Shown here: in pieces, positions 21,643-27,953 of the stretch
Layout of the letters: each line of letters opens with the position of its first letter
How positions within the stretch are numbered: position 1 is the first letter of the stretch
The notes under the pieces: generated by a model
Seen by the model: the letters and a program-made list of their open reading frames with translations, nothing else
The model's database searches: none
What the model was told of the DNA's origin: nothing
Made by a program: the position numbers and the translations under genes
Assembly: GCA_905235625.1 (NCBI GenBank)
Contig: CAJOLX010000012.1
Location: 1 to 35,122, forward strand
Length of the DNA stretch: 35,122 nucleotides
Reading direction: 5' to 3'
From: an uncultured Clostridia bacterium
Lineage (GTDB): Bacteria; Bacillota; Clostridia; Oscillospirales; Acutalibacteraceae

Positions 21643-22332
21643 TCACTCCGAAATGTTTTTCACCTTAAGGCTCTTAAGGTATTCTTTGCTCTCGTCGCTT
21701 ATTCTGCGGCTCTCGCGCGCTTTCTGTATGGCTTTGTTGTGGACCCACGGGTCAAGCCTGCGCTGCTCAAAATAGGGAATTATGCGGTCGTATTGATAAG
21801 CGAGAGCGGTGGCAAAATACCACGAAATCATCATTTTTACATAATAGTCTTCCGAAAAGGAAGCCGACACTTTAAGAGCGCATTCGTCTGTAAATTTATC
21901 GGTGAGAAAATAATTCATCAGCATGCGTATGCCGAATCTCACCGTGTAGGTTTTGCCCGAAGACAGGCACTCGTCAATAAACGGCATGAGCCTGTCGGCA
22001 TTTTTCGCAAACGCCGCGGGGTTCAGCTGGTCGCAGGTCGCCCAATTGTCAACGTAAGGCAAAAACGCCCGCACTTTTTCGACCGACGAGTCAAAATTCT
22101 TGTCAAGCGAAATAATAAACGAGTGCAGCTGATTTTCTTCAAAATATTCGTGCGGCAGCTCGTTTAAGAACGCTTCTCCCTCGGGAGCGCCTGAGCAGGC
22201 TTTCGCGAGGGAGCGGATATCCGGTGTGCGAACCCCGATTATTTTGCCGGGGTCAACGTTTGGTATGAGCTTTGCGGTGAACGCCGCGTAATCGGCGTCG
22301 GCAAGAGAAAAAAGCTTATCCTTTAAGCTCAT
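21643..22332 (-). CDS. DNA alkylation repair protein, AlkD-like DNA glycosylase
   Basis: AlkD proteins are HEAT-repeat-like glycosylases that remove N3- and N7-alkylated, positively charged bases. The 229-residue product has the family signatures VDNWATCDQL, MMISWYFATALAYQ and DPWVHNKAIQKARESRRI. Trp97 and Asp101 have the same spacing as AlkD Trp109 and Asp113, and Arg136 and Trp171 are in place for Arg148 and Trp187, so the catalytic cleft appears intact. Its ATG overlaps the TGA of the kinase-GH4 gene (ATGA), so the two are translationally coupled, although no functional link is obvious. The permease gene begins 7 bases after its stop. Confidence 0.9.
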   Translation of the reverse strand: MSLKDKLFSLADADYAAFTAKLIPNVDPGKIIGVRTPDIRSLAKACSGAPEGEAFLNELPHEYFEENQLHSFIISLDKNFDSSVEKVRAFLPYVDNWATCDQLNPAAFAKNADRLMPFIDECLSSGKTYTVRFGIRMLMNYFLTDKFTDECALKVSASFSEDYYVKMMISWYFATALAYQYDRIIPYFEQRRLDPWVHNKAIQKARESRRISDESKEYLKSLKVKNISE

Positions 22333-24593
22333 TTCGCCGCGTTCTCATCTTTAAAATACTGGGGCAGATACTGCTTGTGAGCCTCTTTCATCTCATTAAA
22401 GCAGTTAACCGCTGCCTCCCAGTCGCCCACGAGAGGATGAATGAGCAGGGCGTTGATAGCCGCCTCTTCGTCGCCGTCTCTGCCGGCTTTAACGGTGTAG
22501 TTCTCATACTCCTTAACGACTCTCATGAGCCCGATTATGTGGTGATTGTCTATCTCGCCCACGGGTATGGGCTTTGCGCCGTCTTTGCCCACTCTCGCCG
22601 CAACTTCGATTACGTCGTCGGGCTTTAAGAAGGGCAGAGTATCGCCGTTTTTAACGTTGACGACTTGAATGTCGTTAACGTCGTTCGCTATGGCGTTAAT
22701 GAGGTTAACGGCAACAAGCGAATACTTGTGGCCTCCCCTCTGGTCAAGCAGCGCGGGCTTTACGTAAAGCCCTTCGTCGCTGTACATTTCGAGAAGCTGC
22801 TCCTCGATTTCCATGCAGACCTGCGCCCTGCTCTTGTCGCCCTCAAGCAGGTGCTTGAGCTTTGCGTTGCGGCAGTAATAATACTGCAGGTAAGAGGAAG
22901 GCACGGCGTGAATTGCGGCAAGGGTTTCGAGCGAGAAGCCGTCGTCCTTGATGTTTGCCATAACCTTGGGTGAAAAGCCCTGAGCGATGAGGTCGTCAAG
23001 CAGCTCTTTGCCGTCCACGCGAACGCTCGTCATCCAGCTTAAATGATTGAGGCCGACGTAGGTGTATTCCATGTTTTCGCCCACGATTTCTTTCGTGTCG
23101 TCAATCATGTCGATAGGCACGTTGCAAAGGCCTATGCACTTAACGTTTGTGTTGTTGAGCACAAATTCCGTGATAATTCCCGAAGGATTGGTGAAGTTAA
23201 TGAGCCACGCGTTCGGGCAGATAGCTTCTATCCTGTCGCAGATATTCTTGATAACGGGTATGGTCCTCTGAGCCTTGAAAAATCCGCCGATACCGGTGGT
23301 TTCCTGGCCGATAAGGTTATATTTGAGGGGTATTGTTTCGTCAAGATGCCTTGCGGGCAGCTTGCCCACTCTTATCTGAGTGACAACGAAATCCGCGCCC
23401 TGCAGCGCCTCGTCAAGGTCGTCGGTGATAACGGTTTCGCAGTCGATGCCCGCAGCCTTAAGCATGCGCACGCAAAGGCCGCCCACTATCGTCCTCTTTC
23501 TGTCGTCGATATCCATAAAGGATATTTTCTTGAGCTTCAAAGTGTCCTGAGCCTTGAGAAATCCGTCGATGAGCTCGGGGCAATATGTGCTGCCGGAGCC
23601 GATAACGGCAACCGTTATCTCTTTGGGCTCTTTCACGGCGTCTTCGTCGGGCTCGGCGTATTCCTGCATAATCCAGTTGATACAGCCCGTAACGGGAGGA
23701 ACGTCGAGCTTTTTGAAGACGATCTTTCTGCCCGAATACTCCGCCGCTTTCTCTTTAAGCATTTTGATATATGTCGGGGAGCCTACCTTAAGGTTTATTG
23801 AGCCGGAGAGGATTACCTCAACCTCGTCGCCGTCAAACTCCATCTGACTTATGAGAGCGGCGATAGCTCTCGCGCCCGTTTCAGCCATCTGCTCGCAGTA
23901 AGCCGTGGCGGGGCGGTCGTTTTGCTCAACGGCGTCAAAGAAGAACTGAATGAAATTGCGTATGTGTGAGGGATCCTCGGCGGGATTTTCGATTTTGCCG
24001 AGAAGCTCGAGGAAATCCTCTCTCTTCTCTATGCCGTAAAAATCCTTCACCATGCCGGTGATAAGGCTTTCCTCAATGCCGAGGAAAAGCTGTCTGTAAA
24101 CTATTTCGTAAGCCTTGATGGCTATTGACTCGCCGCCCGGCAGGTCGCCCGAAAACAGGCCGAGGCCCATGAGCTGGAGCATATTGCCCTTTGAGTCAAT
24201 TCCGTTGCAGCAAACGCCCGTGCCGCAGTTGTAGCCTACGGCGGAGCCCGTTGACGAGCCGGCTTTTATGATGAGATAGCCGTCGTTGTAAACTTCAAAA
24301 TTGTCAAGGCCCTTTGAGCGGAGAATTGAGCACATTTTGTCGTGCTGCCACTTGTGGTCTATGCCCGCAAGGCCCATAACGGTGAACGATATTTGCGAAA
24401 GAGCGAGTCCGTTATTTTTGCAAAGACCGTTTATGCCGTCCATGATTATTCCGGCAGCCTCTTCAAAGCCGCCTTCAAGATTTTCGTGATTGCTGCCCGG
24501 AACGGCGCAGTAATCAAGCATTTTCTTTGAGCCGTCAAAAAGCGCGATTGCGGTCTTAGTGCCGCCGCCGTCAACTCCGATGTAGAATTTCAT
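22329..24593 (-). CDS. Fusion of a BadF/BadG-type sugar (N-acetylglucosamine-like) kinase and a GH4 NAD-dependent 6-phospho-glycosidase
   Basis: Residues 1-312 form a complete ASKHA kinase of the BadF/BadG/BcrA/BcrD family: phosphate loop GVDGGGTKT (6-14), MGLAGID (73-79), GYNCGTGVCCNG (120-131), GDLPGGES (149-156) and LSGS (262-265), as in N-acetylglucosamine kinases. After a charged linker (313-325), residues 327-754 form a GH4 enzyme: NAD-binding VIGSGSTYCPEL (330-341), NFTNPSG (466-472), metal ligands Cys490 (GLCNVP) and His517 (GLNHLSW), and a tyrosine-rich YLQYYY (568-573) that may hold the catalytic base. GH4 enzymes use NAD and Mn to cleave 6-phospho-glycosides by transient oxidation at C3. 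The fusion thus could phosphorylate a glycoside and then cleave it. Start ATG 24593 has GGAGGAGG 9 bases upstream. Substrate unknown. Confidence 0.9.
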   Translation of the reverse strand: MKFYIGVDGGGTKTAIALFDGSKKMLDYCAVPGSNHENLEGGFEEAAGIIMDGINGLCKNNGLALSQISFTVMGLAGIDHKWQHDKMCSILRSKGLDNFEVYNDGYLIIKAGSSTGSAVGYNCGTGVCCNGIDSKGNMLQLMGLGLFSGDLPGGESIAIKAYEIVYRQLFLGIEESLITGMVKDFYGIEKREDFLELLGKIENPAEDPSHIRNFIQFFFDAVEQNDRPATAYCEQMAETGARAIAALISQMEFDGDEVEVILSGSINLKVGSPTYIKMLKEKAAEYSGRKIVFKKLDVPPVTGCINWIMQEYAEPDEDAVKEPKEITVAVIGSGSTYCPELIDGFLKAQDTLKLKKISFMDIDDRKRTIVGGLCVRMLKAAGIDCETVITDDLDEALQGADFVVTQIRVGKLPARHLDETIPLKYNLIGQETTGIGGFFKAQRTIPVIKNICDRIEAICPNAWLINFTNPSGIITEFVLNNTNVKCIGLCNVPIDMIDDTKEIVGENMEYTYVGLNHLSWMTSVRVDGKELLDDLIAQGFSPKVMANIKDDGFSLETLAAIHAVPSSYLQYYYCRNAKLKHLLEGDKSRAQVCMEIEEQLLEMYSDEGLYVKPALLDQRGGHKYSLVAVNLINAIANDVNDIQVVNVKNGDTLPFLKPDDVIEVAARVGKDGAKPIPVGEIDNHHIIGLMRVVKEYENYTVKAGRDGDEEAAINALLIHPLVGDWEAAVNCFNEMKEAHKQYLPQYFKDENAAK

Positions 24594-24594
24594 A

Positions 24595-25869
24595 TTATTT
24601 ATCCTCCTCCGCTTCAAAATAATCATAGCAAACCTCGTCCAGACAGAATTGACCGCGTCTGTAAGGTTCTCTGTCTATCCACATGCCTCTTGTGAAATCC
24701 GGAAAAGCTATCGGCGATGAGCCGGTCGCTACGGACATCTCGGAAAGGCACGTTACCGCCATCCATGCGGCGGTGTCATAAACGTCAATAGGCGGCTTCG
24801 CGTCAAGCTTTACGCTCTCAACGAACGCGCTGAGCACGAGGAAATCCATACCTCCGTGGCCGCCTTCGTGAATGCCCTCTTCGGAATATTTTTTCCAAAG
24901 CGGATGCTCGTATTTATCTCGGTATCCGTCGTCGTAAAAATTTTCCCAGGTGTGGGTCCAGTGCTCTTTGTTTTCATGGGATATGCCCTCAAGATATATC
25001 GAGTCGCCGTCTTCCATGTAAATGCCCTTCGTGCCCTGAATTCTGTAAGCTCTCGAATAGGGGCGCGGCAGGGAGCAGTCGTGAATGAGGGTCACGGTTT
25101 CGCCGTTTGCGCATTTAATCATCGTCGTGATCACGTCGCCCTGGTTGAATTTATATTCAGCAAGGTCGTAATCCTCGCCCTTGTTGTTTTTTATCCACTC
25201 GTTGAGTCCCCTCGATTTTGAAGCCATTGAAACGAGAGATATGAACCTGTTGCCTCTGTTTATGCCGAGCACCTTTGAAATGGGCCCGAGCTGATGGGTG
25301 GGATAAAGCTCGCCGTTTCTGTGCTGAAAATTAAAGAGCCTGCCGTGCCTGTCTTCTCTGCCGAGCGAAATCTCATCGCGCAAATCGTGCTCATAGCCGC
25401 CCGCCATGTGAATTATTTCGCCGAAGAGCCCCTGCTTCACCATGTTGTAAAGCGCCATTTCGCTGCGGTCGTAACAGCAGTTTTCGAGGAGCATGCAGAA
25501 TTTGCCCGTTTCCTCGCTCGCTCTCACCATTTCCCAGCATTCTTCGATATCCGCGGCGCCGCCCACTTCAACAGCCACGTGCTTGCCGGCTCTCATGGCG
25601 TCGGTCGCAATGCGCGCGTGAGTTATCCAGGTGGTGCAGCAAAGCACGGCGTCAAGGTCGTCCCTCGCGAGCATTTCTTTGTAATCAAGGTAAACGTCGG
25701 GAGATTTGCCTGTTTTTTCGGTAACGATTTTTTGACCCTCAAGCGCTCTGTCTTCATATTTATCGCAGACGGCTGTAACCTCAACGCCTTCGCAGTTGAG
25801 TATTTCGGCAAGGTTGCCTCTGCCTCTGCCTCCGAGGCCTACCGCCCCGATTTTAATATTCTCTTTCAT
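24595..25869 (-). CDS. Gfo/Idh/MocA-family oxidoreductase, GH109-like NAD-dependent glycosidase
   Basis: The 424-residue protein has an N-terminal Rossmann domain (GLGGRGRG, residues 11-18; CDKYEDRA) and a C-terminal alpha/beta domain with GGYEHDLRDE (157-166), NGELYPTHQLGP (185-196, His192), WTHTWENF and HPLWKKY...GHGGMD (322-342). This pattern resembles GH109 alpha-N-acetylgalactosaminidases, which keep NAD bound and cleave by oxidation-elimination, more than ordinary sugar dehydrogenases; a plain sugar or inositol dehydrogenase is the alternative. No signal peptide is seen, so it is probably cytosolic. GGAGG lies about 5 bases before ATG. It is the first gene of the operon; its last codons contain the ribosome binding site of the kinase-GH4 gene, and the stop is 1 base from that ATG. 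Confidence 0.85.
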   Translation of the reverse strand: MKENIKIGAVGLGGRGRGNLAEILNCEGVEVTAVCDKYEDRALEGQKIVTEKTGKSPDVYLDYKEMLARDDLDAVLCCTTWITHARIATDAMRAGKHVAVEVGGAADIEECWEMVRASEETGKFCMLLENCCYDRSEMALYNMVKQGLFGEIIHMAGGYEHDLRDEISLGREDRHGRLFNFQHRNGELYPTHQLGPISKVLGINRGNRFISLVSMASKSRGLNEWIKNNKGEDYDLAEYKFNQGDVITTMIKCANGETVTLIHDCSLPRPYSRAYRIQGTKGIYMEDGDSIYLEGISHENKEHWTHTWENFYDDGYRDKYEHPLWKKYSEEGIHEGGHGGMDFLVLSAFVESVKLDAKPPIDVYDTAAWMAVTCLSEMSVATGSSPIAFPDFTRGMWIDREPYRRGQFCLDEVCYDYFEAEEDK

Positions 25870-25950: not shown

Positions 25951-26484
25951 CTATTTAAAGTATTTTTTAAAATGTTTTCTCCACTTATTTACATAAAGTG
26001 TGATAAGGCGCGTGAGCGCGAAGTCATAAAAGACAAAAGCGAACGCTCCGAGCCCGAGAAGCATGACCGCTCCCCACATTCCGTATTCGTCCATTTCGTC
26101 AAGCGTCAGCCCCATTAGTCCTATCATAACGGCGTATGAAGCGGTCATGGAAGCGAGAAAAACGGCGAGCTTTATAAGCATTGCGGGAAATGCCGGAACG
26201 TGAGCCTCAATCGCCGCTTTAAGTATGGGATAATAGCCGAAAAACGCAAGATACATGGCGGCAACTTCTTTTTCGGGCACGAGGAATATGCCCAGCAAGG
26301 AAACGACGGCATAAACGCCGAACGCCCATTTTTTATCCGTTTCAACCACCATTATTATCAGCAGCGCTCCGGCGAAAGCGGGCAGCGCGTAAGTCATGAA
26401 CGGCACGAGCGCCACCGATATAAGCACGGTGAGCGACAGGGCGGCTGTAATGCCGCCGAGCGCGCATTTTGAAGTATGTTTCAT
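25951..26484 (-). CDS. Small integral membrane protein of unknown function
   Basis: The 177-residue product is strongly hydrophobic with about five or six membrane segments (roughly 9-30, 33-48, 53-70, 75-92, 100-126, 135-160) and a basic C-terminal tail (NKWRKHFKKYFK). The look is that of small substrate-binding (S-component-like) or YybS-type membrane proteins, but no diagnostic motif is seen and I do not assign a function. GAGGTGA, which includes the stop of the J-like gene, serves as ribosome binding site. It is the last of a three-gene operon. Confidence 0.8.
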   Translation of the reverse strand: MKHTSKCALGGITAALSLTVLISVALVPFMTYALPAFAGALLIIMVVETDKKWAFGVYAVVSLLGIFLVPEKEVAAMYLAFFGYYPILKAAIEAHVPAFPAMLIKLAVFLASMTASYAVMIGLMGLTLDEMDEYGMWGAVMLLGLGAFAFVFYDFALTRLITLYVNKWRKHFKKYFK

Positions 26485-26492
26485 TTTTCACC

Positions 26493-27047
26493 TCAGCAGC
26501 AGCTTATAAAATCTCCGCCCATGCATTCGCAGCAGCAGTCGGCGCAGAGGAGCCCCGTGCACATGTCGCACGTGCTGCACTCCCTGCCGGAGGAATGCTT
26601 TTGGCGCGAGGTGCGGTAGCCGCCCGAGCGGGCTCTGTCCGCTCTTTCGCACGCCTGCCTGTAAACGTCGCTTCCGGGGTCCATGTTGTAAGCGCTCCGA
26701 AAGTGGTTTGCCGCTTCGTCGAGCCAGCCTTTTCTCTCGTAAACAACGCCCCTGAGATAATACCATTGGGCGTTGCGCGAAGCAAGAGGTATTCCGTCAA
26801 GAAGCGTTTGAGCGTCTTCAAGCCTTCCGGCGTTGATTTTGGCCTCTATATCGGAAAAATCGTTGCCGACAAACGTGTAGCTGCCCGAGGACTGCATGAT
26901 TATTTCGTCATAAGCCTCGTCGAGCTCCGCAAGCTTGTCGTATCTGCCGGCTTCTCTGTAAGCTCTCGCTTTGCGCTTATAAGCCTCGTCAACAGCCTGA
27001 TGCGACGAGCCTCTCGGCACACCGAGCACGGTATAGGGGTCTGTCAT
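26493..27047 (-). CDS. Degenerate J-domain / TPR / Cys-rich protein
   Basis: The 184-residue product has an N-terminal segment (3-50) that looks like a J-domain (DPYTVLGVPRGSSHQAVDEAYKR, here split by a short variable part) but lacks the HPD tripeptide needed to stimulate DnaK. Residues 66-125 look like tetratricopeptide helices (AQWYYLRGVVYERKG; AANHFRSAY). The last 28 residues hold ten cysteines (CSTCDMC, CADCCCEC, SCC), a probable zinc or iron-sulfur site. It is therefore probably a scaffold rather than a normal co-chaperone, as inference. GGAGGTGA precedes ATG. It lies 15 bases after the DUF5685-like gene and 8 before the membrane gene. Confidence 0.83.
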   Translation of the reverse strand: MTDPYTVLGVPRGSSHQAVDEAYKRKARAYREAGRYDKLAELDEAYDEIIMQSSGSYTFVGNDFSDIEAKINAGRLEDAQTLLDGIPLASRNAQWYYLRGVVYERKGWLDEAANHFRSAYNMDPGSDVYRQACERADRARSGGYRTSRQKHSSGRECSTCDMCTGLLCADCCCECMGGDFISCC

Positions 27048-27062
27048 TTTTTCACCTCCGCT

Positions 27063-27953
27063 TTATTTTACGGTGAATGATTTGGGCTTTTCGGGGCAAT
27101 CAAGATATTTTGAAACCGCTTTGTCCGCGGCGCTCGAAAGCCCGTCAAAAACCACGTTATCTATAATGTCGTCAAATCTTTTGAATTCCGCTTTTTCGCG
27201 CGCTTCGTCCGCGGCGCAGTGAGTCTGATTTAGCAGCGCTCTCGATTCTTTTATGAATTCCTCCCGCGCGCCGGGCTCGCTTATGTCGGGATATTTTTTC
27301 TTAAACGGATTGAAAGCTCCCGTTTTAATGTCTTTGCAGTAATCGTCAACGGCGTCAAGGATGTAAATGTATCTGCCCGTAAGGTAACCGAGGCGGTAAA
27401 GCTCGCTTTCTTTTTCTTCGCATTCGAGCGAAAACAGCCTGCCGAGAGCGTCGGCGGAAGGGTCTGCGCAGGCGTCTATGCCGCTGTCGGGGGCATTCTC
27501 CGCGTCCGCCTGAGCGGCGACGGCGCTTGAAATCGCGGTTTCAATCTCCGGCGCGAGCCTCTTGGCTTTTTTATGCATGAGAGAAACGGCGGGCAGAGCG
27601 AGCAGCGAAAGAAACCGCTTGCCGAATTCTTTATCTTTTATATTGTCTTTCAGCTTATAGTAAACGGTGATTACGGCGCCGTGAGCGCAAAGGTCGATTT
27701 CTCTTTTATCCTCGCAGAAGAAGCATTTTTTAGCCGGATTTAAAGGGCATCTTTTCTGAGTGAACGTGCACGAAGCGGAACCCGCGGCGAGCTTCACCAT
27801 AGCGGCAAAAGCGAAATCATAGCTCAGAAGGAGCCTTCCGAAAACGCCGTAATATTTGCCCAAAGCATTGCACACCGAGCAGTAAATGCCCCTGTAAACT
27901 TCATAATCGGCAACCTTCATTTCCGGCTTGTAAGCCCTGACGTAGCCAAGCAA
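27063..27953 (-). CDS. DUF5685-like protein
   Basis: The 296-residue protein begins MLGYVRAYKPEMKVADYEVY, the signature of DUF5685 proteins of Clostridia. Two Cys groups are visible: CSVC (25-28) and CPLN...CFFC (69-80), possible metal ligands. Two Asp-rich stretches, LKDNIKD (101-107) and DAVDDYCKD (200-208), recall the paired metal-diphosphate motifs of all-helical isoprenoid synthases; this is only inference. The start is TTG 27953 with GGAGG 10 bases upstream; no suitable ATG exists. Function unknown. It heads a three-gene operon with a promoter about 55 bases upstream. Confidence 0.83.
   Translation of the reverse strand: MLGYVRAYKPEMKVADYEVYRGIYCSVCNALGKYYGVFGRLLLSYDFAFAAMVKLAAGSASCTFTQKRCPLNPAKKCFFCEDKREIDLCAHGAVITVYYKLKDNIKDKEFGKRFLSLLALPAVSLMHKKAKRLAPEIETAISSAVAAQADAENAPDSGIDACADPSADALGRLFSLECEEKESELYRLGYLTGRYIYILDAVDDYCKDIKTGAFNPFKKKYPDISEPGAREEFIKESRALLNQTHCAADEAREKAEFKRFDDIIDNVVFDGLSSAADKAVSKYLDCPEKPKSFTVK

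Follow-up and report, generated by a model that had tools for sequence, protein, structure and literature searches.

A GH4 phospho-glycosidase is commonly taken to indicate that sugars enter through a PTS. The window analysed here, a stretch of 35,122 nucleotides from an uncultured Clostridia bacterium, encodes a protein in which such a domain is joined to a BadF-type kinase, raising the question of where the phosphate on its substrate comes from. If a BadF kinase can supply it, the PTS reading would fail in gut Clostridia that lack a PTS, and one protein of a gut bacterium would probably do what a special uptake system does elsewhere, namely place a phosphate onto an imported sugar chain and then cut it.

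Domains of the fused protein

The fusion gene (22329..24593, minus strand) encodes 754 residues plus stop; the same frame on the plus strand contains many stops. Of its two in-frame ATGs, which result in numberings of 765 and 754 residues, the one at 24593, already chosen in an earlier sequence-only reading and used here for numbering, is preceded by a GGAGGAGG site within the 3' end of the upstream gene, whose stop is at 24595. The protein comprises a kinase half (residues 1–312; 23658..24593, minus strand), a linker delimited by sequence comparison (313–323; 23625..23657, minus strand) and a GH4 half (324–754; 22332..23624, minus strand), latter of which was assigned by Pfam and by comparison with 5c3m, 1s6y and E. 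coli ChbF. In the 765-residue numbering, PF01869 (16–303), PF02056 (339–515) and PF11975 (523–733) all match above cut-off, the two GH4 models being covered at positions 2–181 of 183 and, completely, 1–211 of 211. Pfam, alignments and the minus-strand frame thus bear out the proposal of the sequence-only reading that one polypeptide carries a complete kinase and a complete GH4 domain. A fold model is good for the kinase half and mostly below a pLDDT of 60 for the GH4 half, and its domain arrangement is not usable.

Its sequence places the GH4 half in the ChbF/6-phospho-beta-glucosidase type. It matches solved 6-phospho-beta-glucosidases with E-values of 2.7e-72 to 5.5e-100 (5c3m 5.5e-100, 1s6y 5.4e-99, 1up7 2.7e-72) and 6-phospho-alpha-glucosidases with 1.5e-37 to 3.2e-50, whereas it reaches only 3.3e-13 with AglA (1obb) and only 2e-12 with LplD (3fef), both of which we take to be enzymes of unphosphorylated sugars. 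Its identity amounts to 38% to E. coli ChbF compared to 24% to MelA, and the motifs RVG (408–410), DExIPL, GQET (429–432) and CN(V/I)P (CNVP, 490–493) are common to the GH4 half and ChbF, where two of them read LDERIPL and CNIP, and are absent in MelA. In a five-row alignment including ChbF and MelA, the residues that we presume to form the NAD loop (G332, G334, S335) and to ligate the metal (C490, H517) are invariant, as is Y568, to which we likewise assume a role (all numbers being half-domain numbers plus 323), so that the earlier description of both metal ligands and the NAD loop as intact holds. We regard CNVP as a mark of the 6-phospho-beta-glycosidase subgroup of GH4; no paper naming both was found in the open-licence literature. 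A 6-phospho-hexopyranoside is required by BglT and GlvA (PMC10628242).

The kinase half scores 66.5 bits with PF01869 (cut-off 31.5) and 21.8 bits with the ROK family, below its cut-off of 22.9. D8, G10 and T12 of the DxGxT motif (8–12), G124 and G126 of the GTG motif and the catalytic Asp104 are in place, with roles assigned by alignment with PMC10465942. The closest solved relative in sequence and fold is MurK from C. acetobutylicum (8zo3), which, like human NAGK, contains a Trp within a GGWG...GDEGS pocket motif. Among 100 kinases adjoining GH4 genes, a set that excludes L201 (a kinase piece of 157 residues) and L221, this motif (Trp plus DEGS) and Trp144 are found in none and N-x-[E/Q] at positions 35–37 in 96, whereas the four PTS-linked BadF kinases all contain the Trp and the motif and none contains N-x-[E/Q]. 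The kinase near the GH4 gene of L221, a locus without PTS, carries N-x-Q and no Trp. As MurK from T. forsythia, a MurNAc kinase, reads S133-P134-L135, with Leu135 at the NAGK Trp position by spacing (PMC10465942), where the window kinase has Leu144, the motif does not define GlcNAc/MurNAc kinases. The aromatic residue two positions after the loop Asn (W38 in NAGK, F34 in T. forsythia MurK, following the same source) is Glu37 in the window and Asn in C. acetobutylicum MurK, and its absence consequently does not exclude a GlcNAc/MurNAc kinase. The pocket sequence of GH4-linked kinases, unlike that of NAGK and C. acetobutylicum MurK, would speak weakly against plain GlcNAc as substrate.

Kinase partners and PTS genes in relatives

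The association of both activities extends well beyond the fused protein. The kinase is located upstream of GH4 in 77 of 80 loci, which are all whose contig extends far enough, 74 as separate genes and three fused. In the 74 split loci, the intergenic gap has a median of 19 bp and is at most 152 bp in 72. On the order level, the kinase adjoins GH4 in 11 of 14 loci from 13 genomes (L259 being identical to L070), in 10 of these downstream. The sequence-only reading had stressed the fusion, which is real; the wider finding is the two-gene kinase-GH4 module, which is older and more widespread.

Across the phylum, we analysed the 69 loci at the top of the match list, leaving out about 10 matches of similar score and lower-scoring ones, and sought PTS and ABC genes within the fetched stretches as Chb-type EII and L181-type ABC. 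A BadF kinase adjoins GH4 in 22 of these loci and Chb-type PTS EII genes are found in 26, with no locus containing both, and ABC permeases are present in 9 of the 22 loci with adjoining kinase compared to 0 of the 47 others. The Fisher value of 2e-6 for this exclusion is inflated since loci are related and several originate from the same genome; on the GH4 tree, from which L195 was omitted (GH4 piece below 300 residues) and where loci with neither partner and L071 were left stateless, it corresponds to two state changes. In four loci (L185, L187, L188 and L223), a PTS is accompanied by a BadF kinase nearby, illustrating that such a kinase can serve these clusters after cleavage.

In the genus of the window, none of 45 genomes had PTS enzyme I above cut-off, and the EIIC family PF02378 was found in none of the 45, with each search exceeding its cut-off in 7 of 14 control genomes; 15 of the 45 genomes are at least 90% complete, and 30 are below 90% complete or more than 5% contaminated. 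We take the weak enzyme I matches, seen in 30 of the 45, to be PEP synthase/PPDK-type proteins.

No sugar transporter was found beside the window gene. Directly upstream, a gene for a GH109-type NAD-dependent glycosidase (24595..25869, minus strand; PF21252) aligns with 2ixa over residues 20–433 (E 1.3e-94) and retains YPTH, whose Tyr and His presumably have the role known from GH109. Of the 73 relatives whose sequence leaves space for it, 55 have it, and the fusion gene is possibly translationally coupled to it. A promoter-like match (10/12) is located just upstream of the GH109-type gene, with 7 such matches observed against 7.6 in shuffles. Further conserved neighbours, all on the minus strand, are a 177-residue membrane protein (25951..26484), for which at best an ECF S-component-like fold is possible (Foldseek probability 0.99, E 0.25), a DnaJ/TPR protein (26493..27047), whose DnaJ match is below cut-off in the window copy, and a DUF5685 protein (27063..27953), assigned by domain search and the relatives' loci.

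A proposed PTS-free route and its alternatives

We favour, with moderate confidence, a role of the fusion protein as a two-function enzyme in glycoside use without a PTS, which would phosphorylate and then cleave. A beta-linked disaccharide or glycoside would be imported by a non-phosphorylating transporter, upon which the kinase half would transfer phosphate from ATP to O6 of the non-reducing sugar. With NAD+ and a divalent metal, the GH4 half would oxidise C3, eliminate the aglycone sugar and add water, yielding a sugar-6-phosphate and a free sugar. Whereas the chemistry of GH4 enzymes and of the kinase is established, we infer both the order of steps and the action of the kinase on the glycoside and not on the free sugar; the benefit of the fusion might be a fixed ratio and perhaps hand-over. 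The PTS-free route, already put forward in the sequence-only reading, is supported by a GH4 half belonging to the 6-phospho type, by a genus without the tested PTS parts and by the 69 phylum loci, in which Chb-type PTS genes and an adjoining BadF kinase never occur together. The accompanying leaning towards an aminosugar has fared less well, as the pocket of the kinase does not follow that of NAGK, although this is not decisive. Our own slight lean, held tentatively, is towards a gluco-type beta-glycoside, with a GlcN or GlcNAc glycoside being a possible if somewhat doubtful substrate. On a larger scale, it is conceivable, at not quite an even chance, that a Bacillota-wide PTS-independent system exists, where a subfamily of BadF-fold kinases with N-x-[E/Q] loop and altered GWG/GDEGS pocket would phosphorylate imported disaccharides or glycosides for a GH4 partner, replacing the PTS, and that it became fused in one gut lineage. 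If so, these kinases, which homology would probably lead one to name GlcNAc kinases, would serve another purpose.

The kinase might instead trap the monosaccharide that the GH4 half or GH109 sets free, with GH4 acting on unphosphorylated glycosides and the fusion joining cleavage to trapping. This reading, which we consider unlikely, draws on GlcNAc/MurNAc monosaccharide kinases being nearest to the kinase by both sequence and fold, on the BadF kinases in the vicinity of PTS clusters, whose disaccharide is phosphorylated during import, on NagA and NagB, each of which exceeds its cut-off in 36 of the 45 genomes of the genus, and on the fusion being the only PF01869 gene above cut-off in its own genome. 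It is at odds with 6-phospho-type motifs in a genus without the tested PTS parts and with the difference between the pockets of GH4-linked and PTS-linked kinases.

As a special case of the PTS-free route, the kinase could generate chitobiose-6-phosphate, from which a YdjC/ChbG-like deacetylase would remove one acetyl group before GH4 releases GlcN-6-phosphate. Of the E. coli GH4 enzymes ChbF and MelA, the former is closer to the GH4 half and cleaves GlcN-6P glycosides after the action of ChbG (PMC12791066), and Glu37, which 77 of the 78 family kinases share, could by its position face an amino group. YdjC genes are present in 43 of 45 genus genomes; in L069 and, by clustering, in L068, one lies further along the row of genes that includes the pair. 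However, the L069 YdjC has no relative in the 80 loci of relatives, YdjC in 16 of the 69 phylum loci never occurs with an adjoining kinase, the bacterium's own copies show 27–31% identity to ChbG over partial length, and the kinase lacks the aromatic residue that holds the N-acetyl group in NAGK and T. forsythia MurK (PMC10465942), as does C. acetobutylicum MurK. YdjC/ChbG was rejected as a chitobiose link, the genus having YdjC but unlinked to the kinase-GH4 pair there, and we regard this route as improbable.

Origin of the fusion and known systems

The fusion is rare and recent, the result of one event and known from four genome records, the window and G004, G009 and G040 (L076, L080 and L077), whose proteins are 84–85% identical to that of the window and where both domains and the frame are kept while the linker varies. 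Judging by name, two of the three records besides the window belong to one project. Because the search of relatives reads through stops, a full-length row alone does not prove a fused gene; among 99 relatives, all 20 rows besides the window that cover both halves were inspected, revealing three fusions and 17 pairs of genes. No further fusion was detected among the matches listed for 200 family and 394 order genomes, where the inspected rows covering both halves (G228, G257, G183, G189, G214, G270, G255, G203; G864) are two genes, with a stop preceding GH4 even in G203, whose kinase is truncated by the contig end. Among the matches listed for 398 phylum genomes, the GH4 match of the window alone resides in a frame above 700 residues. 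Long GH4 frames in G483, G644 and G582 (657–695 residues), G741 and G754 were inspected and are no kinase-GH4 fusions, and neither is, as judged by eye, that of G075. Nearly all relatives thus contain two separate adjoining genes. In a kinase tree calculated without L201, the fused kinases form a single clade with a support of 100/100, consistent with one recent event. Although the tiny gap between both genes in nearly all relatives would invite an assembly or sequencing artefact, which the sequence-only reading had named as a concern, the four records with differing linkers and kept frames and the single clade render it extremely improbable. The same reading had known of no characterised fusion of this kind, in line with the open-licence literature, where no paper on a kinase-GH4 fusion or pairing was found among the matches listed.

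Compared with known systems, the kinase shares its fold and catalytic Asp with C. acetobutylicum MurK (8zo3) and human NAGK, whereas their GGWG...GDEGS motif and the NAGK Trp beside the loop Asn are not kept. BglT from Thermotoga maritima (1up6, 1up7) and Gan4C from Geobacillus (5c3m) belong to the same GH4 subgroup and are, unlike the window protein, single-domain chains. We assume T. maritima to have no PTS and a BadF gene adjoining BglT; neither gene number appears in the literature among the matches listed. BglK from Klebsiella pneumoniae is presumably a ROK-family protein, whereas the window kinase belongs to PF01869 and falls below the ROK cut-off. The likeness to BglK consists in an ATP-dependent kinase acting on a glycoside, followed by GH4 (PMC10628242). 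The GH4 half, which shares its motifs with E. coli ChbF, would be expected to cut a 6-phosphorylated beta-disaccharide as that enzyme does. However, in the Chb system the PTS phosphorylates at uptake (E. coli gene table; PMC12791066), whereas here, with none of the tested PTS parts found in the genus, the kinase is fused to GH4, a natural arrangement in which a single protein would hold both steps.

The fused gene and its split relatives

The gene extending on the minus strand from 24593 to 22329 comprises a single frame of 754 codons, and in Pfam its product scores 66.5 bits against PF01869, the BadF-type kinase domain, for which the cut-off is 31.5, and 177.5 and 169.2 bits against the two GH4 domains, which bears out the sequence-only reading that a complete kinase and a complete GH4 enzyme share one polypeptide; an NCBIfam scan of the protein returned no model over its cut-off. 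A GGAGGAGG site, which lies within the 3' end of the gene upstream (stop ending at 24595), precedes the start at 24593. A search for this architecture across genomes recovered single-frame fusions in three relatives (G004, G009 and G040), with 84–85% identity to the protein of the window. The fusion is real, and it is rare. With four genome records carrying a single frame and linkers differing in length and letters, a sequencing artefact is ruled out.

The remaining loci of the genus that were opened encode kinase and GH4 separately. Full-length rows in the relatives, family and order searches reflect that the search reads through stops and do not prove a fused gene, and all listed rows spanning both halves that were opened beyond the known four (from 99 relatives, 200 family and 394 order genomes) turned out to be two genes. 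Similarly, among the matches listed for 398 phylum genomes, no GH4 match besides that of the window lies in a frame exceeding 700 residues. In a kinase tree of 43 rows, which includes three of the four fused kinases, these form one clade (100/100) nested among split ones, so that a single recent fusion of the gene pair is the simplest history.

The wider kinase-GH4 module, together with its pocket signature, is the more useful part. Of the 556 loci confirmed in a GH4-alignment scan, the best 80 were kept, and all of these are titled uncultured Clostridia, Clostridiales/Clostridiaceae, Oscillospiraceae/Ruminococcaceae or Bacillota, many originating from guts of ruminants, horse and deer. Within this set, the kinase is located 5' of GH4 in all 77 loci whose contig is long enough, 74 of them split and 3 fused, with a median gap in the split pairs of 19 bp and two wider ones of 606 and 1826 bp. 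Eight additional family-level loci contain the pair. There are exceptions, such as L065 (G014), where about 2.4 kb separate the genes. Other families of the order often invert it (14 loci from 13 genomes; kinase adjacent in 11, 3' of GH4 in 10), and the order-level loci L255, L257 and L258 have no adjacent kinase. In the open-licence PMC literature, we found no paper on the fusion or the pairing.

Conserved neighbours

A GH109-type gene, which in the window matches 2ixa at 1.3e-94, lies 5' of the pair in 55 of the 73 loci whose contigs extend far enough. Further 5', 38 of 71 relatives with room keep a block (25951-27953, minus strand) encoding a DUF5685, a DnaJ/TPR and a 177-residue membrane protein, outside of which the flanks vary. 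The membrane protein (25951-26484, minus strand) has no Pfam match over cut-off; in Foldseek, its predicted model (pLDDT 83) resembles RibU and other ECF S components (probability 0.99, TM about 0.6, but an E of only 0.25). Relatives of the DUF5685 protein (27063-27953, minus strand) contain an ILDAxDDxxKD-like stretch with a possible likeness to the second of the Asp-rich motifs in squalene/phytoene synthases. At the other end, 9 of the 80 loci (L134, L136, L141, L143, L150 and L152-L155) carry, 3' of GH4, relatives of about 700 residues of the PF07494 propeller proteins of L068 and L069; L068 contains three propeller proteins in tandem.

The source of the phosphate

PTS enzyme I (TIGR01417) passes its cut-off in none of the 45 genomes of the genus, and PF02378, the one EIIC family searched, was found in none of them; 15 of the 45 have a completeness of at least 90% and a contamination of at most 5%. 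Weak enzyme I matches below cut-off in 30 of the 45 were taken for PEP synthase or PPDK-type proteins. Of 69 phylum GH4 loci, 22 have a BadF kinase directly adjoining and 26 have Chb-type EII genes within the stretch, with both together in none, so that one route looks like a replacement of the other. The Fisher values overstate this exclusion, which reflects only two state changes on the GH4 tree and includes some loci that share a genome. ABC sugar permeases accompany 9 of the 22 kinase-adjacent loci and 0 of the 47 others, as in L181 (LacI, binding protein, two permeases, GH4, kinase); 12 of the 69 lack any partner sought.

In a GH4 clade of seven of these loci (L237-L242 and L244), a YdjC deacetylase directly adjoins GH4, with neither a BadF kinase nor Chb-type PTS genes within the stretch. 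Separately, L167 (own genome, C3) contains at ~505-1470 a gene that, judged by eye from its motif, looks like HPr kinase, preceding a ROK kinase in a genome without PTS enzyme I over cut-off.

Sugar pocket, substrate and enzyme type

By sequence and fold, the kinase half groups with MurNAc/GlcNAc kinases (8zo3, C. acetobutylicum MurK; Foldseek TM 0.88 by target length), and its sugar-surrounding residues differ from theirs. PMC10465942 assigns the catalytic base of T. forsythia MurK to D95, the hold on the C1 hydroxyl to D141, and a link to N-acetyl binding to W38 of human NAGK; the aligned counterparts in the kinase of the window are D104, D150 and residue 37. The catalytic Asp is kept by all 100 GH4-adjacent kinases examined, and N-x-[E/Q] occupies 35-37 in 96 of them; the GGWG-motif Trp and DEGS are absent throughout. 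Both are present in the four BadF kinases from PTS loci, which form a separate clade (100/99) and lack N-x-[E/Q]; a plausible role for these is to phosphorylate the sugar once it has been set free. Those linked to GH4 look altered near C1 and C2, which fits a glycoside substrate and argues weakly against plain GlcNAc.

NagA and NagB (36 of 45 genus genomes each) and YdjC (43 of 45) are over cut-off, the genus thus probably being able to use amino sugars; none of the three is among the scanned neighbours of the fusion. The adjoining GH109 hints at a glycan containing N-acetylhexosamine, and we lean slightly, and tentatively, to a gluco-type beta-glycoside.

The kinase might instead phosphorylate the monosaccharide released, with the GH4 half taking unphosphorylated glycosides. 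Two MurKs weaken the pocket argument for a glycoside: that of C. acetobutylicum also lacks an aromatic residue at position 37, and that of T. forsythia has S133-P134-L135 in place of the GGWG stretch of NAGK, so that loss of the Trp is compatible with a monosaccharide kinase. We nevertheless consider that rival reading unlikely. PTS-free phosphorylation followed by GH4 cleavage, which the sequence-only reading had called plausible, is supported by the kinase/PTS exclusion, the lack of enzyme I over cut-off and of PF02378 in the genus, and the 6-phospho-type GH4 half, and is the function we favour with some confidence; whether BadF kinases with altered pockets phosphorylate glycosides for GH4 throughout Bacillota, as a PTS-independent system fused in one gut lineage, we regard as nearly evenly balanced.

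For the GH4 half, the closest matches are 6-phospho-beta-glucosidases (5c3m, 5.5e-100; 1s6y, 5.4e-99; BglT 1up7, 2.7e-72), ahead of 6-phospho-alpha-glucosidases (3.2e-50 to 1.5e-37), AglA (3.3e-13) and LplD (2e-12). According to PMC10628242, BglT and GlvA require the 6-phosphate. The GH4 half has 38% identity to E. coli ChbF, with which it shares the motifs RVG, DExIPL, GQET and CN(V/I)P, all absent from E. coli MelA, to which its identity is 24%.
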